Origin: Thermosulfuriphilus ammonigenes
GTDB lineage: Bacteria > Desulfobacterota > Thermodesulfobacteria > Thermodesulfobacteriales > ST65
Length of the DNA stretch: 64,000 bases
NCBI RefSeq assembly: GCF_011207455.1
Contig: NZ_CP048877.1
Coordinates: 1,852,576-1,916,575 of the forward strand
Reading direction: 5' to 3'
The notes beneath the pieces are model-generated. The model saw only the letters and a list, made by a program, of their open reading frames with translations. It had not been told where the DNA came from and did not search any database. The first letter of the stretch is position 1. Each line of letters starts with the position of its first letter. The position numbers and the translations under genes are program-made. Shown here in pieces: positions 49,759 to 56,900 of this stretch.

Positions 49759-50715
49759 ATGCCGGTTCACATAATCTTTCTGATCCTACTCTTTGGCCTT
49801 TTGCTGGTGGGGGATCTGCTCCTGGTGATGAAACTTTTCGAGGTGATCGGTTCCCTTAAGGGCCTTGAGGCCGAGGGGCTTGTTATCGCCTTAAGGTCTT
49901 TGGCCTCAGGCCTTAAGGAAGAGGCCTTGCTCTCTTTGGCCGTGGGAGTAGTGGCCGCGGTGGCCATGGTGGCCTTCTGGATAACTCTTCGGCGGGAGCA
50001 AAGACATCACCGCATTTGCGAACAGCGCCTGCGAGAGCTCTCAGAGCGCTTACGCGCTCTGGTGGAGGCCTCCCCCCGTTTAGGTATCGTGCGTATCAGG
50101 CTCCCACACGGGGAGTTTATCGATGTTAATCGAGGAGCCTGTGAGCTCCTTTCCCTTTCTCGAGGGGAGCTTTTGGGAAGAAGCCTTCTTGACTTTGTCT
50201 ACCATGAAGATAAAGAGGCCATGGCCAAAGGCCTTTATGGTCTTAAAGAGGGAGAGATGGCGGAGATGGTCTTTCGTTTCGTTTCAGGTATAGGCCGTAT
50301 CTTTCCCGCAGAGTGGCATCTTTTTCGCCCCCGTTCGGATTTTCCGGATTCAGAAGCCGTAGGAATTTTTACCGATGTTACCGACCGGGAGGCAGCTGAG
50401 GCCGAAAGACTATTGCGTGAGCGTCTTCAGGGAGTTTTGGAGATGGCCGGGGCTGCCGCCCATGAGATCAACCAACCCCTTCAGATCCTGGCCGGGATTG
50501 CCTGGCGCCTCAAAGAACGTTGCCCCCAGAGTCAGGAGTGCCATAAGATCATAGACCAGCTCGAAGAAGAAGTAGAACGCATGATGACCCTCGGCCACAA
50601 ACTGGCTTCAGTGAGCCGCTATGCCGTAAAACCTTATGTGGGGGAGACAAAAATTATTGATCTGGAGGCCGCCAGTTACTCCTCAGAGACTGGTTCCACT
50701 GAGACCAAGACATAA
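49759..50715 (+). CDS. PAS and HisKA protein without an ATPase domain
   Basis: A 318-residue membrane protein with helices at about 3-25 and 58-78, a coiled coil, a PAS domain (about 95-210; LGIVRIRLPHGEFIDVNRGACELL) and a HisKA dimerisation box with H235 in AAAHEINQPLQILAG. It ends shortly after this box with no N, G1, F or G2 ATP-binding motifs, so it cannot autophosphorylate alone. It may accept phosphate from the two-CW kinase upstream, act as a phosphatase, or be a signal-reshaped dimerisation partner. It starts directly after the preceding gene. The 3' end overlaps the convergent M16 peptidase gene by 40 bp. Confidence 0.75.
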   Translation: MPVHIIFLILLFGLLLVGDLLLVMKLFEVIGSLKGLEAEGLVIALRSLASGLKEEALLSLAVGVVAAVAMVAFWITLRREQRHHRICEQRLRELSERLRALVEASPRLGIVRIRLPHGEFIDVNRGACELLSLSRGELLGRSLLDFVYHEDKEAMAKGLYGLKEGEMAEMVFRFVSGIGRIFPAEWHLFRPRSDFPDSEAVGIFTDVTDREAAEAERLLRERLQGVLEMAGAAAHEINQPLQILAGIAWRLKERCPQSQECHKIIDQLEEEVERMMTLGHKLASVSRYAVKPYVGETKIIDLEAASYSSETGSTETKT

Positions 50716-53327
50716 AGATCCCCCCCTAAATACTTTCTGGCTACTTCGGAGATTTGTTCTGGCCCCACCTCCTGAATCCGGCGGATATATTTGATGGCAA
50801 AGTTGTATCCCAGGCCATAGAGTTCATTAAGGGCCATGTCTAGGGCCTGGGCCCCATTGGTCTGAAGTCCGATCTCATAGCGTCCGATAAGGCGCTTTTT
50901 GGCCTTGCTTATCTCCTCCGGATTAAGACCCTCGGTGTTTAGCCGGTAGATGGCCTGCCACAGGCCTTTTAAGGCTCGATCTTTCTTTTCGGGGGCGGCG
51001 GCAATATAGAAGGCAAAACTCCCCGTTCCCAAAAGGGGACGGTAAAAGGCCGTTACTGAATAAGCCAGGGCCTCTTTGTCTCTTAACTCTCTGAAGAGGC
51101 GCCCACTTTGGCCCGAGAGAACCGCTGCCAGGATATCCAGGGCAAAGCGATCCTGACTCTCAAGACCCGGGGTTCTGAAACCAAGCAGAATATGGGCTTG
51201 ACGAATCTCTTTATGAAGGGTGGAGAACCGGGCCTGGGTAAGTGGGGGTGGTGGCGAGGGAGGCTCTGGAAGGCTCCCCTGGCCTTGGTGCCAACCGCCA
51301 AGAAGGTCCTCTAGAATCTGGAAGACCTTTTCTGCTTCAAGATCGCCGACAAGGGCCAAGACACCTCTTGAGGGGCGGATAAAGTTTTCATAGGTCTTTC
51401 TAAGATCTTCGGCCTGGAGACGGGCAATGACTTCCTTGCTCCCTAGAGGAGAGAGGGCGTAAGGATGACCCTCAAAAAGGAGGCGGTTAAATTCCCTCAT
51501 GGCCAGCTCAGTGGGGTTGTCCTCCAGAGAACTAATTGTAGCTATTACCGGCCCCTTGGCCTTTTTGACTTCATCTTCAGGAAAGGTGGCCTGGGTGAGG
51601 ATCTCACTGAAGAGCTCCAGGGCCTTTTTAAGGTCACGTGAAAGAAACTCGCCCTCAAGGCCAACGGTGTTTCTGCCCGAAAAACCGCTCAGGCTACCAC
51701 CCATGGCTTCGATGGTCTCCGCCAGTTGGTTGGAGGTGTGCTGGCTAGTTCCTCTGGTCCAGGTGGCCGCAAGTAAGCGAAAGAGTCCATTGGTTTGCTT
51801 CGTCTCAAAGCGAACCCCACCGGGAAAGACGATTCGCAGGGCAAAGGTGGGAACATCAGGTATCTCTCTGACGAGGACAGTCAAACCATTAGAAAGTACT
51901 CGCCGATAGGTAGGAGCCACAAAGCCCCGCTCAGAAGAGCTTATCCCCTGAGCAGCCAGCAGGGCCTCCTCGTTAATGGCGGCCAACTTCTCTGGACTAA
52001 GCCCAGAGGCCTCTTGCGGTAGAAGGATAGCCACGGCCAGGTCTTGAGGGCGGATGTATTTTTCGGCCGCTTCTTGAAGCATTTCCGTGGTGACAGAACG
52101 TACGGCTTCAAGGTAGGTCTTTTCGGCCAGAGGGTCACCAAGGATGGTTTGAAAGACCCCCAGACGTCTGGCCTGCCCCTCCATAAGCTCTTTAATATAG
52201 ATAAAGTCACTCTCTACCTGGGTTTTAGCCCTCTCCAGCTCCTCGGGGAGAACCGGATAGAATCTCAGCCGATAGGTTTCTGTGAGAATAGCCTTAAGGG
52301 CAGCTTCAAGGTTTTCTGGCTCAAGTTGAGCGCTTATTCTTAAAAGCCCCGGTCCCATGGGGGTAAAGGAGTAGGCTCCTATAGTTGAGACCAGCTCCTG
52401 CTTCTCCCGTACTTTTTGATAGAGCCTGGAGCTTCGTCCCGAACCAAGAATTACCGCCAAAACATCAGCCAAAGCGGCTTCTTTAATTTCGGTAAGGGAA
52501 GGGCCGGGAAAGGCTAGCTGGAGATAACCCTCCTGGACGTCTTCTTTGAGGACTTTGAGACCTTGTGGCGGGGAACTGCGCTCGGGAATCTTGAAGGGAA
52601 GGGCCTTTTTAAAAGGAGCCTGACCAAAGTATCCCAAGGCCTGAGAGATGGCCTCTTCAGCGGAGACATCTCCTACAATAACCAGGGTCATATGAGTGGG
52701 CCGATAGCGACGTTCAAAATAAGAGACGATGGCTGCCCGGTCTATTTTCTTCAGGGTCTCCGGCCAGCCGATGATTGGTCTTCCATAAGGATGGTTGGGA
52801 TAGGCCAGCCCCATAAGGGCTTGAGAGACCTTTATCTCCGGTCGGTCCTGGCGCATCCGCATCTCTTCTAAGATGACTTCTCTTTCCCGATCTATCTCTT
52901 CTGGGGCAAAGGCAGGGTTAAATAGGGCGTCGGCCAGGGCCGCCAAGGCCTCGTTTAGACTCTCGGCTGGCACGGTAAGGTGATAGACAGTGTAGTCATA
53001 AGATGTATAGGCATTTATAGCCCCGCCGGCAGATTCGATCTCTTCAGCCAAAGCTCCCGGAGGGCGATCTTTGCTTCCCTTAAAGAGAAGATGTTCAATG
53101 AAGTGACTGATTCCAGCCTCTTTGTCTTTTTCATAGACTCCGCCGGCCTTAACCCAGACCTGAACAGCTACTACTGGAGCCCGGTGGCTTTCCTTGACAA
53201 TTATGGTTAGCCCGTTCTCTAAAACCGTTTTCTGAACTCCTGGGGCAATTTCCACGGCCTCTCCTGGTGTTGAAGTCAAGAGGATGAGCCCTAAAACCAA
53301 CCAAAGAATGTGAAGTCTAAGGGCCAT
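50676..53327 (-). CDS. M16 (insulinase family) peptidase, two-domain, exported
   Basis: An 883-residue zinc peptidase with a signal peptide (LHILWLVLGLILLTSTPGEA, about residues 5-24). The first M16 half has HFIEH (His75, Glu78, His79) with a downstream Glu in REREVILEEMRMR, the active zinc site. The second half is M16-like without HxxEH (LLAATWTRGTS), so it is the non-catalytic partner of a clamshell, as in the single-chain pitrilysin type. It probably degrades peptides or processes proteins in the periplasm. AAAGGAGG precedes the ATG. It converges on the PAS/HisKA gene with a 40-bp overlap. Confidence 0.92.
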   Translation of the reverse strand: MALRLHILWLVLGLILLTSTPGEAVEIAPGVQKTVLENGLTIIVKESHRAPVVAVQVWVKAGGVYEKDKEAGISHFIEHLLFKGSKDRPPGALAEEIESAGGAINAYTSYDYTVYHLTVPAESLNEALAALADALFNPAFAPEEIDREREVILEEMRMRQDRPEIKVSQALMGLAYPNHPYGRPIIGWPETLKKIDRAAIVSYFERRYRPTHMTLVIVGDVSAEEAISQALGYFGQAPFKKALPFKIPERSSPPQGLKVLKEDVQEGYLQLAFPGPSLTEIKEAALADVLAVILGSGRSSRLYQKVREKQELVSTIGAYSFTPMGPGLLRISAQLEPENLEAALKAILTETYRLRFYPVLPEELERAKTQVESDFIYIKELMEGQARRLGVFQTILGDPLAEKTYLEAVRSVTTEMLQEAAEKYIRPQDLAVAILLPQEASGLSPEKLAAINEEALLAAQGISSSERGFVAPTYRRVLSNGLTVLVREIPDVPTFALRIVFPGGVRFETKQTNGLFRLLAATWTRGTSQHTSNQLAETIEAMGGSLSGFSGRNTVGLEGEFLSRDLKKALELFSEILTQATFPEDEVKKAKGPVIATISSLEDNPTELAMREFNRLLFEGHPYALSPLGSKEVIARLQAEDLRKTYENFIRPSRGVLALVGDLEAEKVFQILEDLLGGWHQGQGSLPEPPSPPPPLTQARFSTLHKEIRQAHILLGFRTPGLESQDRFALDILAAVLSGQSGRLFRELRDKEALAYSVTAFYRPLLGTGSFAFYIAAAPEKKDRALKGLWQAIYRLNTEGLNPEEISKAKKRLIGRYEIGLQTNGAQALDMALNELYGLGYNFAIKYIRRIQEVGPEQISEVARKYLGGDLYVLVSVEPVSEE

Positions 53328-54241: not shown

Positions 54242-54299
54242 AAGCTCTAGGGCTGAATATCTCTTCAACAGGCGTTGAATGGCCATTCATTTAGAGCTT
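54242..54299. repeat. Nested inverted repeat upstream of the sulfur cluster
   Basis: Three inverted repeats share almost the same centre: AAGCTCTA (54242-54249) with TAGAGCTT (54292-54299), TGAAT (54254-54258) with ATTCA (54285-54289), and TTCAAC (54264-54269) with GTTGAA (54274-54279) around an AGGC loop. They can fold into one imperfect 58-base hairpin in DNA or RNA. A TTGACA -35-like box (54298-54303) lies at its right edge. It lies in the 344-bp spacer between the MBL gene and yeeE, so it may be a regulator-binding dyad or a transcript structure. Confidence 0.55.
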
Positions 54300-54391
54300 G
54301 ACAGTCTTCCCCCCTTTTGTTAGACGATAGAACTCAAGAATCGTGTCTTTTTATCATTTTTTTTGTTTAAGTTTGAATAATCTAGAAGGTT

Positions 54392-54424
54392 GCCAGTTGT
54401 TGCTAGAAAAAATTGCCAACTGGC
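54392..54424 (+). promoter_or_regulatory. Inverted repeat in the yeeE leader
   Basis: GCCAGTTG (54392-54399) is repeated inversely as CAACTGGC (54417-54424) with a 17-base spacer; TTGCCA also occurs directly at 54390-54395 and 54413-54418. This lies 26 bp before the yeeE ATG. It could be an operator for a dimeric regulator or a leader hairpin. No matching regulator gene is adjacent. Confidence 0.45.
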
Positions 54425-54449
54425 CAAAATCTCAATTTTGGAGGGTTTT

Positions 54450-55628
54450 ATGGCCGAAGATAACGTCCTCAGCCAACGGATAAAGGAGCTTTACAATGCC
54501 TTTTTTGTCCGGGATTGGAGTCCTCTTATGGGGGCCATCCTTATTGCCTTCTTTGCCGTTCTTATGGAGGCCTGGTATCGCCCCTGGGGTATTGTTGGAG
54601 GACTCCGTAACTGGGCCGACTGGTTTTTCTACCTTATCGGCCTTTATGAGGATGAACCCCCTCATGTCCTCTGGTTTTCTTCTTCGGTAATGAACATCGG
54701 TTTTATTGCCGGGGCCTTTATTTCAGCCCTTATGTCTCGCAACTTTGCCTTTCGTATTCCCCCCACCTTAGAAATCATCAAAGGCTTTGTGGCCGGTATC
54801 CTTATGGGAATTGGGGCTTCTTTGGCTATGGGCTGTAACATTGGTGGCTTTTATGTAGCCATTCAAAATTTGGCCGCCAATGGCCTATTAATGTTCATTG
54901 GTCTCATTTTTGGGACCATGCTCGGTCTCAAGTATCTTATCTGGGAGATGAATCACTTCTTCCCCTCTGGAGGGCGAGAGATTGGTCCTCCCCGGAATGC
55001 CGAACCCTATATTGGTGTCCTCTGTATTGTGGCCCTCTTTGTTGCCGCCTACATGTATATGGGCTCTGATATGGATGACGCTGAACTCATGGCTGGTTAT
55101 CTCCTTATCGGTTCGGCTCTTGGCTTTACCATGCACCGTAGTCGTCTCTGCATGGTTAACGGTCTGCGAGAGCCCTTTATGACCGGCGATGCTAAGATGG
55201 GCAAGGCGGTTATGCTTTCCATTATTCTTGGGGCTATCGGGGTGGCTATTCTCAAATATCAGGGACTACGGGCTGAAGAGCTTTATGTTACCCCCACCTT
55301 TGGACTCGGAGCCCTCTTGGGAGGTTTTATCTTTGGGGCGGCTATGGTAGTGGCCGGTGGCTGTGGCTCGGGAAGCCTGTGGCGAGTTGGTGAAGGTCAG
55401 CTTAAGCTCTGGATAGTGGCTATCACTTTTGGTCTTACCAATTCCATTGTTCGGCATCTATTTGCTGAGTATGACGTTATTGAAGAGGGCTATCTTGGTA
55501 AGGCTATCTACCTTCCTGACTATTTAGGCTATGGGGGAACACTCTTTTTGATTACCGCCATTATGATTATTTGGTACATTATTATCGACTGGAACGAAGA
55601 GACCAACAAGATGGTCTTTGAAATTTAA
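54450..55628 (+). CDS. yeeE: YeeE/YedE-family sulfur transporter
   Basis: A 392-residue membrane protein with about ten helices. The family cysteines are all there: C129 in GCNIGGF, C234 in HRSRLCMVNG and C305 in AGGCGSGSLW, plus small-residue-rich helices. YeeE/YedE proteins import thiosulfate or other reduced sulfur species through a line of conserved Cys. GGAGGG is four bases before the ATG; the frame also runs back to 54390, but that region is the leader repeat. It is the first gene of a five-gene sulfur-transfer cluster. Together with tusA and dsrE-like genes it matches the YTD arrangement associated with sulfur disproportionation. Confidence 0.88.
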   Translation: MAEDNVLSQRIKELYNAFFVRDWSPLMGAILIAFFAVLMEAWYRPWGIVGGLRNWADWFFYLIGLYEDEPPHVLWFSSSVMNIGFIAGAFISALMSRNFAFRIPPTLEIIKGFVAGILMGIGASLAMGCNIGGFYVAIQNLAANGLLMFIGLIFGTMLGLKYLIWEMNHFFPSGGREIGPPRNAEPYIGVLCIVALFVAAYMYMGSDMDDAELMAGYLLIGSALGFTMHRSRLCMVNGLREPFMTGDAKMGKAVMLSIILGAIGVAILKYQGLRAEELYVTPTFGLGALLGGFIFGAAMVVAGGCGSGSLWRVGEGQLKLWIVAITFGLTNSIVRHLFAEYDVIEEGYLGKAIYLPDYLGYGGTLFLITAIMIIWYIIIDWNEETNKMVFEI

Positions 55629-55653
55629 ATAAATCTTAAGGAGGTTTAGAATT

Positions 55654-55911
55654 ATGAGTGAATTCAAGAAGGCCCCTGAAGGAATCAAGCCTGACGTGAC
55701 CATCGATTGTAAGGGTCTTTCCTGCCCTATGCCCCTTTTGCGAACCAAAAAGGCGGTAGAGAAGCTCGGCTCCGGGCAGATCTTGGAGGTTTTGGGTACG
55801 GATCCTGGCTCCCGAAATGATATTCCTGGCTGGTGCGCTCGGGCCGGACACGAGTATCTTGGCGAGATCGAAGATTCGGGATTTTTCCGCTTCTATATCA
55901 AGAAAAAGTAG
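55654..55911 (+). CDS. tusA: Sulfur carrier protein TusA
   Basis: An 85-residue TusA. DCKGLSCPMPLLRTKKAVE carries the active C24 in the CPMP motif; C19 lies five residues before and C61 later. TusA carries sulfane sulfur as a persulfide for tRNA thiolation or for dissimilatory sulfur metabolism. AAGGAGGT precedes the ATG, 25 bp after yeeE. A single fused or linked YeeE-TusA pair is known to handle imported sulfur in other bacteria, so here TusA probably takes the sulfur brought in by YeeE. Confidence 0.93.
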   Translation: MSEFKKAPEGIKPDVTIDCKGLSCPMPLLRTKKAVEKLGSGQILEVLGTDPGSRNDIPGWCARAGHEYLGEIEDSGFFRFYIKKK

Positions 55912-55956
55912 CAATTATTTCGCTTTTAACTATTAAACTTTTTAAGGAGGCCAATT

Positions 55957-56286
55957 ATGGCAGATGAGAACAAACTGGGAATATTTGTTACCACTCCCCA
56001 GCATATAGACCACCTGGTGGGTATTGTTAAGGCTGCCCAGAAGGCCGGAAAGAGTGTCAAGGTCTTTCTGACCTTTAAGTCTATTCACCTAACCAAACAT
56101 GCGGTCTTTAAGGAGCTGGTAAAGATGATCCCTGAGGATGACTTGGCCATTTGTGCCGATAGCTATGTCTGCGAGGGCTACGATGTGGACACCGACATTC
56201 CTGCCGGCATGACAGCTAAACAAATGCGTACCCAGGCCTTCCACGGTAGCATTATTGAAGAATGTGGTAAGTATATTGTCCTTTAA
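55957..56286 (+). CDS. DsrE-family sulfur-transfer protein
   Basis: A 109-residue protein with the DsrE/TusD-like fold pattern (GIFVTTPQHIDHLVGIVKAAQ at the N-terminus and a beta-alpha repeat). C66 and C72 (AICADSYVCEGYD) are in the region where DsrE carries its active cysteine. C103 is near the end. It probably takes sulfur from TusA and passes it on, in the manner of DsrEFH or DsrE2. AAGGAGG precedes the ATG. The gene belongs to the YTD-type operon. I do not assign it to a specific DsrE subclass. Confidence 0.8.
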   Translation: MADENKLGIFVTTPQHIDHLVGIVKAAQKAGKSVKVFLTFKSIHLTKHAVFKELVKMIPEDDLAICADSYVCEGYDVDTDIPAGMTAKQMRTQAFHGSIIEECGKYIVL

Positions 56287-56297
56287 GGGGGGAATCT

Positions 56298-56657
56298 ATG
56301 TCTAAGAAACTTTATTTTTTGATCCCTAATCGGGTCTATATCACGGACGCTATTCGCTCCACCCTGGGGCAGGCCATTGAGAACCACTACTCTCACGCCT
56401 GTGTCCTTTACAACAAAATGCCCAAGGTTAGTGAGTACGTGAAGGAAAACATCGAATGGATTCGGGACATGGAGGGTGACGTTTTTGCCGTAGTGGATAC
56501 TATGGATGAAGAGGCTAAAAAGTACAATGTTGATGAGGTTGGTCTTACCCCGATTACCCTAGAGGAGCTGGCCCAGAGGCTTAAAGAGGCCGACCTGATC
56601 ATTCCTTATGGCCTGCCGCGGTCCCTCCATGCGCCACCGCCGGCCTGTGCTGATTAG
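56298..56657 (+). CDS. Second DsrE-like protein
   Basis: A 119-residue protein with SKKLYFLIPNRVYITDAIRS at the N-terminus and a helix-strand order like DsrE. C35 (YSHACVLYNK) is the first conserved-looking Cys, and another lies in the Pro-rich tail (PPPACAD). Similarity to DsrE is by overall shape and gene position, not by a strong motif. It lies 11 bp after the DsrE-like gene with GGGGGG upstream, and 23 bp before a 57-residue protein. In published YTD clusters, hypothetical genes occupy this place. Confidence 0.6.
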   Translation: MSKKLYFLIPNRVYITDAIRSTLGQAIENHYSHACVLYNKMPKVSEYVKENIEWIRDMEGDVFAVVDTMDEEAKKYNVDEVGLTPITLEELAQRLKEADLIIPYGLPRSLHAPPPACAD

Positions 56658-56680
56658 GCCACTTTGAAAGGAGGGTTAAA

Positions 56681-56854
56681 ATGAAAATCTTACATATCTA
56701 TAAAAGCACGCCTACCGAGGAGACCAAAAAACTGGTTGCCCTTCTTAATGAGGGAAATGAGGGGATAGATTTTCCCCTTTATGAGGGGGAGCCTGACTAC
56801 GATAAGCTCATTGAACTTATCTGGGAGGCTGACAAGGTCATCTCCTGGTGGTAG
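56681..56854 (+). CDS. 57-residue DsrH/TusB-like protein
   Basis: A short gene with GAAAGGAGG before its ATG. The product starts MKILHIYKSTPTEETKKLVA and ends DKVISWW; the N-terminus looks like DsrH/TusB (L-H-x-x-x-K-S-P/T pattern), and the terminal Trp is also seen in TusB-like proteins. It has no cysteine, unlike true DsrH, so it may be a structural subunit of the sulfur relay. It sits last in the operon, 9 bp ahead of a strong terminator. It is easy to miss because of its size. DsrH identity is tentative. Confidence 0.6.
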   Translation: MKILHIYKSTPTEETKKLVALLNEGNEGIDFPLYEGEPDYDKLIELIWEADKVISWW

Positions 56855-56862
56855 AACTTAAA

Positions 56863-56900
56863 AGGATCTGATCCCGAACGACGGGATCAGATCCTCTTTT
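56863..56900. terminator. Strong hairpin terminator after the sulfur cluster
   Basis: AGGATCTGATCCCG (56863-56876) pairs fully with CGGGATCAGATCCT (56882-56895) around AACGA, a 14-bp stem, followed by CTTTT. A T-rich run also exists on the other strand, so it can serve both the sulfur cluster and the convergent KamA-type gene. Confidence 0.9.

Follow-up and report, generated by a model that had tools for sequence, protein, structure and literature searches.

The YTD operon type has been on record since 2020, and biochemical tests of its core followed in 2026 (PMC13293266). Structure prediction identified the YTD trio as a DsrEFH-like complex in the same year (PMC13047784), and the DsrEFH type II complex of the cable bacterium Candidatus Electronema aureum was reported with its structure, its purification and sulfur-transfer tests. 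In these tests with E. aureum proteins, sulfur was passed in vitro from TusA to Cys67 of DsrE and on to DsrC, and the complex was shown to be a TusA-fed sulfurtransferase (PMC13293266). For cable bacteria, a DsrH-like fold of the third subunit and a 1:1:1 heterotrimer were reported (PMC13047784, PMC13293266). In the DsrEFH type I of Allochromatium vinosum, Cys20 of DsrH is essential in vivo (PMC3397948), and the absence of Cys20 from DsrH was already noted for cable bacteria (PMC13047784).

Here, we analysed a stretch of 64,000 nucleotides (the window; positions 1,852,576-1,916,575) of the single-contig genome of Thermosulfuriphilus ammonigenes, which comprises 2,287,345 bases. The window carries a known, well-preserved example of the YTD/DsrEFH type II system, and the first-pass annotation had correctly recognised a YTD-type cluster. 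The YTD locus of Thermosulfurimonas dismutans S95 (L091) has the same five genes in the same order and on the same strand, with the same upstream M16 peptidase and promoter, and its DsrE is 69% identical to that in the window; the two hypothetical genes match those in such clusters of known disproportionators, T. dismutans among them. The T. dismutans locus differs downstream, where phosphoribosyltransferase and acyl-CoA ligase genes are located. The E. aureum GS operon (L113; PMC13293266) shares the tusA-dsrE-dsrF-dsrH order and similar sizes with the window, but its yeeE is divergent whereas that of the window is co-directional, and an extra small ORF may sit between yeeE and tusA. Transcription of yeeE away from tusA-dsrEFH was seen in Desulfobulbales (L104, L113, L131, L140, L141 and L161), unlike in Thermodesulfobacteriales, and several of these loci are near dnaN and gyrB.

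Layout of the operon and its signals

Five rightward ORFs at 54450-56854 were read as a single transcription unit. The first gene (54450..55628, + strand) encodes a yeeE/yedE-type sulfur-species transporter of 392 aa (PF04143, Sulf_transp, 4e-53) and is the only YeeE gene in the genome. It is followed on the same strand by tusA, encoding a sulfur carrier of 85 aa (55654..55911; PF01206, TusA, 1.7e-26), and by the genes assigned as dsrE type II (55957..56286; 109 aa; by profile, fold and synteny), dsrF type II (56298..56657; 119 aa; by fold and synteny) and dsrH type II (56681..56854; 57 aa; by alignment, homology and position), the last two of which appear as CHP in publications. The intergenic gaps are 25, 45, 11 and 23 nt, and a strong Shine-Dalgarno sequence precedes every ATG (in gene order GGAGGG, AAGGAGG, AAGGAGG, AAGGGGGG and AAAGGAGGG). 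An intrinsic terminator with a 14-bp stem and a T-rich tail (56863..56895, + strand) closes the unit and forms a common end with a convergent kamA-like gene. The first-pass annotation had listed five genes with strong ribosome-binding sites, short gaps and a strong terminator; the ORF coordinates agree with it, and the Shine-Dalgarno sequences and the 14-bp stem bear it out.

Upstream of yeeE, we found a putative promoter, TTGACA-N11-TTTTGTTAGA, with an extended -10 element (54298..54328, + strand), which ends ~122 nt before the yeeE ATG. The motif TTGACA-N11-TTTTGNTA is kept 5' of yeeE with the same spacing in 29 loci besides the window, distant relatives included (10 checked Thermodesulfobacteriales loci holding yeeE and 19 further loci), and we infer that it may function as a promoter. 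An inverted repeat near 54393-54425 was considered as an RNA switch and rejected, as its folding z was -0.7 and it was absent from the upstream alignment of relatives. An Rfam scan of the window returned one tRNA and nothing else. Upstream, the operon is flanked by M16 peptidase and metallo-beta-lactamase-fold genes, and the gene on its downstream side is lysine 2,3-aminomutase-like. The M16 peptidase gene (50676-53327, - strand), which has no obvious sulfur role, is found upstream of yeeE in the window and in three other loci (L082, L088 and L091).

Identity of the small proteins

When the DsrE, 119-aa and 57-aa proteins were compared with Pfam, NCBIfam and PDB sequences, no match above cut-off was obtained; the label "DsrE-like" was therefore based on profile, fold and synteny. 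In the two collections of loci that we read, tusA, dsrE, the 119-aa gene and the 57-aa gene co-occur in nearly all of 140+ loci, and the profiles of the 119-aa and 57-aa proteins likewise match in nearly all of them. The 57-aa protein is mostly 56-68 aa long among its homologues, its final W is invariant (121/121 unique homologues), and the C-terminal WW is mostly kept. Since size, terminal W and operon position are all kept across loci, the small ORFs are genes rather than chance reading frames. In four loci (L056, L058, L060 and L072), the order is rearranged, with dsrF- and dsrH-like genes before dsrE.

The DsrE protein shows 66% identity with the type II DsrE of E. aureum. Its predicted model (pLDDT 87) found A. 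vinosum DsrE as the best PDB match (2HY5_A; Z 10.7, rmsd 2.4 over 97 residues), and the match to TusD (2D1P_A) reached Z 10.3. The active cysteine, Cys66 in the motif LAIC, corresponds to Cys67 of E. aureum and was present in all 123 of 123 unique sequences. The model of the 119-aa protein (pLDDT 91) adopts a DsrE/DsrF-family fold as well (Z 9.5-11.6), so that both larger subunits have the fold expected of DsrEFH type II. The 57-aa protein ends in SWW, has no cysteine and is 44% identical to E. aureum DsrH; its gene adjoins dsrE/dsrF in nearly all loci. Thus, three consecutive genes are homologous to dsrE, dsrF and dsrH of E. aureum, in the type II gene order, and homology and position make the 57-aa protein the DsrH subunit. 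The first-pass annotation had called these genes a second DsrE-like gene and a 57-residue gene; both are present, and homology, predicted fold and position identify this unannotated pair as dsrF and dsrH of a DsrEFH type II sulfurtransferase; these names replace the earlier labels.

Membership in DsrEFH type I was also considered and rejected, given that the 57-aa protein lacks Cys20 and that none of 26 members of its family matched Pfam DsrH. The A. vinosum type I complex (2HY5; PMC3397948) has the DsrE/DsrF folds, the active cysteine of DsrE and the acceptor DsrC in common with the window. On the other hand, structure-aligned identity is ~14-16%, DsrH of the window has 57 aa and no Cys20, and DsrF of the window carries a cysteine tail.

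Proposed sulfur relay, pathway genes and alternative roles

We next consider what the operon does. Sequence and predicted structure argue, with a probability of roughly 0.78, for a sulfur import and relay line running from YeeE through TusA and Cys66 of DsrE to DsrC and feeding the sulfite reductase pathway. This reading is based on the operon, the protein families, the DsrE and DsrF folds, the conserved cysteines and the downstream pathway genes. Homology and synteny with the tested E. aureum operon and the nesting of the cluster in dsrA-bearing genomes also speak for it. For T. ammonigenes, we infer the YeeE substrate, the in vivo direction of the line and its role. YeeE would move sulfur in reduced form (polysulfide/sulfane sulfur or thiosulfate) across the membrane via three conserved cysteines, and the line would supply sulfur oxidation with nitrate and/or the oxidative branch of sulfur disproportionation. 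Cys24 of TusA would accept the sulfane sulfur, Cys66 of DsrE, within the type II heterotrimer, would accept it from TusA, and DsrC would receive it from the complex on its C-terminal cysteines. From there, DsrMK(J)OP and DsrAB, working in the oxidative sense, would yield sulfite, which AprAB-Qmo and Sat would convert to sulfate. The relay that the first-pass annotation had proposed, with YeeE importing and TusA/DsrE passing sulfur on, agrees with the published biochemistry (PMC13293266). Two published points count against this line: thiosulfate failed to load TusA, DsrEFH and DsrC of E. aureum, and oxidative running of reductive-type DsrAB has yet to be proven for the enzyme itself (PMC13293266).

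The active Cys24 of TusA (SCPMPLL) was found in 113 of 113 unique homologues. YeeE matched the TsuA structure 6LEO at 1e-18 with both halves aligned and the half-order swapped; its half-order is that of the YedE family, permuted relative to TsuA. C129, C234 and C305 of YeeE fall on the conserved cysteine positions of the TsuA motifs; they are kept in 74/74, 74/74 and 69/74 loci, respectively, the remaining five loci reading stop at C305. The conserved cysteines of TsuA are its substrate path. Their retention in YeeE therefore supports a channel for sulfur species.

The genome encodes the gene set for the sulfur disproportionation pathway, namely Sat, AprAB, QmoABC, DsrAB(D), DsrC and DsrMKOP. 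The sat-aprBA-qmoABC genes form one block, and AprB has 154 residues; a 154-residue AprB and nitrate ammonification were reported for strain ST65 (PMC7463578). dsrAB is present with dsrD adjoining, and DsrAB looks reductive-type, judged from this neighbour. dsrM, dsrK, dsrO and dsrP lie near the contig start, and DsrJ has no assigned gene. The single DsrC ends in ACKMAGLPKPTGCV and has both C-terminal redox cysteines. Thus, the aprAB, sat, dsrAB and qmo genes that the first-pass annotation had proposed to look for are all there, as a full dissimilatory sulfur pathway, and its "missing dsrC pattern" did not hold. A NapA-like enzyme is encoded at ~2,180,000 of the genome (L179), followed by genes for 97, 213 and 281 aa (the sizes of NapD, NapG and NapH), and a cysteine-rich, multihaem-like protein is encoded nearby; this set fits nitrate ammonification. 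In addition, two molybdopterin enzymes (genome C1:335470-336747 and C1:980725-982401) have one in-frame TGA each and are possibly selenocysteine formate dehydrogenases.

A different reading holds that the cluster is a dedicated module for the disproportionation of elemental sulfur or thiosulfate, as Umezawa et al. are cited in PMC9751629 and PMC12998232. All five proteins were more abundant during thiosulfate disproportionation by Desulfolithobacter (PMC9751629), and the complete YTD cluster was found in all S0 disproportionators of Desulfobacterota/Nitrospirota in the set studied, but also in non-disproportionating strains (PMC12998232). Furthermore, the genome of the window encodes a PhsA/MolyA-like enzyme along with its FeS subunit and TorD-type chaperone, a set that resembles the MOLY cluster of PMC12998232. 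MOLY genes adjoining the cluster in relatives were looked for and dismissed, the large neighbours being DNA gyrase B, Lon or acyl-CoA ligase. However, the cluster occurs in strains that fail to disproportionate; among 63 cultured disproportionators, only 25 encode DsrEFH type II, which many sulfate reducers encode too and which was interpreted as marking a capacity to oxidise sulfur (PMC13293266). The cluster is also present in Thermodesulfatator, several members of which have been described as reducing sulfate (PMC7463578). In our search with the 109-aa protein, 73 of 395 genomes of the phylum (49 of 246 genera) carry this DsrE, and dsrA is present in 71 of these 73 genomes vs. 119 of the 322 without it (Fisher p ~7e-24, with related genomes treated as independent). 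Because it tracks dsrA and occurs in non-disproportionators, the cluster by itself is no marker of disproportionation; the claim of the first-pass annotation that it marks this metabolism is weak, and we regard the dedicated module as doubtful. The organism itself likely disproportionates, as that annotation had suggested, but the basis is the listing of T. ammonigenes as a disproportionator in PMC12998232, not the cluster.

Two further readings concern the sulfur source and the destination. YeeE and TusA could bring thiosulfate into the cell and split it like TsuA-TsuB (YeeE-YeeD) of Spirochaeta thermophila, with DsrEFH taking the fragments, as preferred in PMC13047784. The window YeeE belongs to the Sulf_transp family together with TsuA (6LEO, 8J4C) and keeps all three aligned cysteines, but the sulfur carrier of the window is a separate protein of the TusA type that scores far higher on the TusA family than on TsuB/YeeD, and E. 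aureum proteins gave no reaction with thiosulfate (PMC13293266), so that thiosulfate splitting is unlikely. Far less probable is a biosynthetic line for tRNA thiolation or selenium handling, like TusABCDE or YedE/YedF. The DsrE fold is equally close to TusD and DsrE, and the best NCBIfam match of YeeE is the selenium YedE/FdhT family, though far below cut-off; against this, a true YedF gene lies separately elsewhere in the genome (L065), selenium genes are absent beside the operon, and the link to dsrA is strong. The relay from YeeE to DsrC is thus the reading that we prefer.

Further conserved cysteines and significance of the locus

Two cysteines besides the active ones distinguish the clade that comprises the window and E. 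aureum. Cys72 of DsrE is invariant in this clade (93/93 unique sequences) and absent outside it (0/30). Likewise, the cysteine of the PPPAC motif in the C-terminal tail of DsrF (Cys117; PPPACAD in the window) is present in 93/93 sequences of the clade and 0/29 outside; the tail is modelled as flexible (pLDDT 64). In the E. aureum operon, the active cysteine, an equivalent of Cys72 and the PPPAC tail of DsrF are all present as well. We did not find the pattern of Cys72 and the DsrF tail in the cited YTD/DsrEFH literature. On a tree built without the Cys72 and tail-cysteine columns, each cysteine required one change, on the same branch. The pattern is therefore one event that was strictly retained in one clade and not repeated co-evolution, and covariation of the two cysteines was rejected as independent evidence.

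Invariance within the clade and absence outside suggest a second working pair that arose once. Tentatively, Cys72 of DsrE and Cys117 of DsrF might form this pair in the clade of the window and E. aureum, the DsrF arm taking sulfur from DsrE and carrying it to DsrC. With the E. aureum DsrE Cys67Ser complex, sulfur loading of DsrF and transfer to DsrC were seen and termed most likely nonspecific (PMC13293266); this transfer could instead be a real second route, which is worth testing because the tail cysteine is strictly conserved. The conserved DsrF arm is a concrete and unexplored site for mutation.

The locus is a clear-cut instance of a system already known, its operon type dating from 2020 and the tests of its core from 2026. 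The statement of the first-pass annotation that the molecular role of the cluster is not established is outdated, and the 2026 work on the TusA-fed DsrEFH type II sulfurtransferase (PMC13293266) has largely closed this gap. Some "hypothetical" genes of sulfur cycling are thus a sulfur relay of defined structure, found here in a vent-type thermophile distant from the cable bacteria in which it was tested. If the relay serves oxidation generally, many sulfate reducers may oxidise sulfur too.
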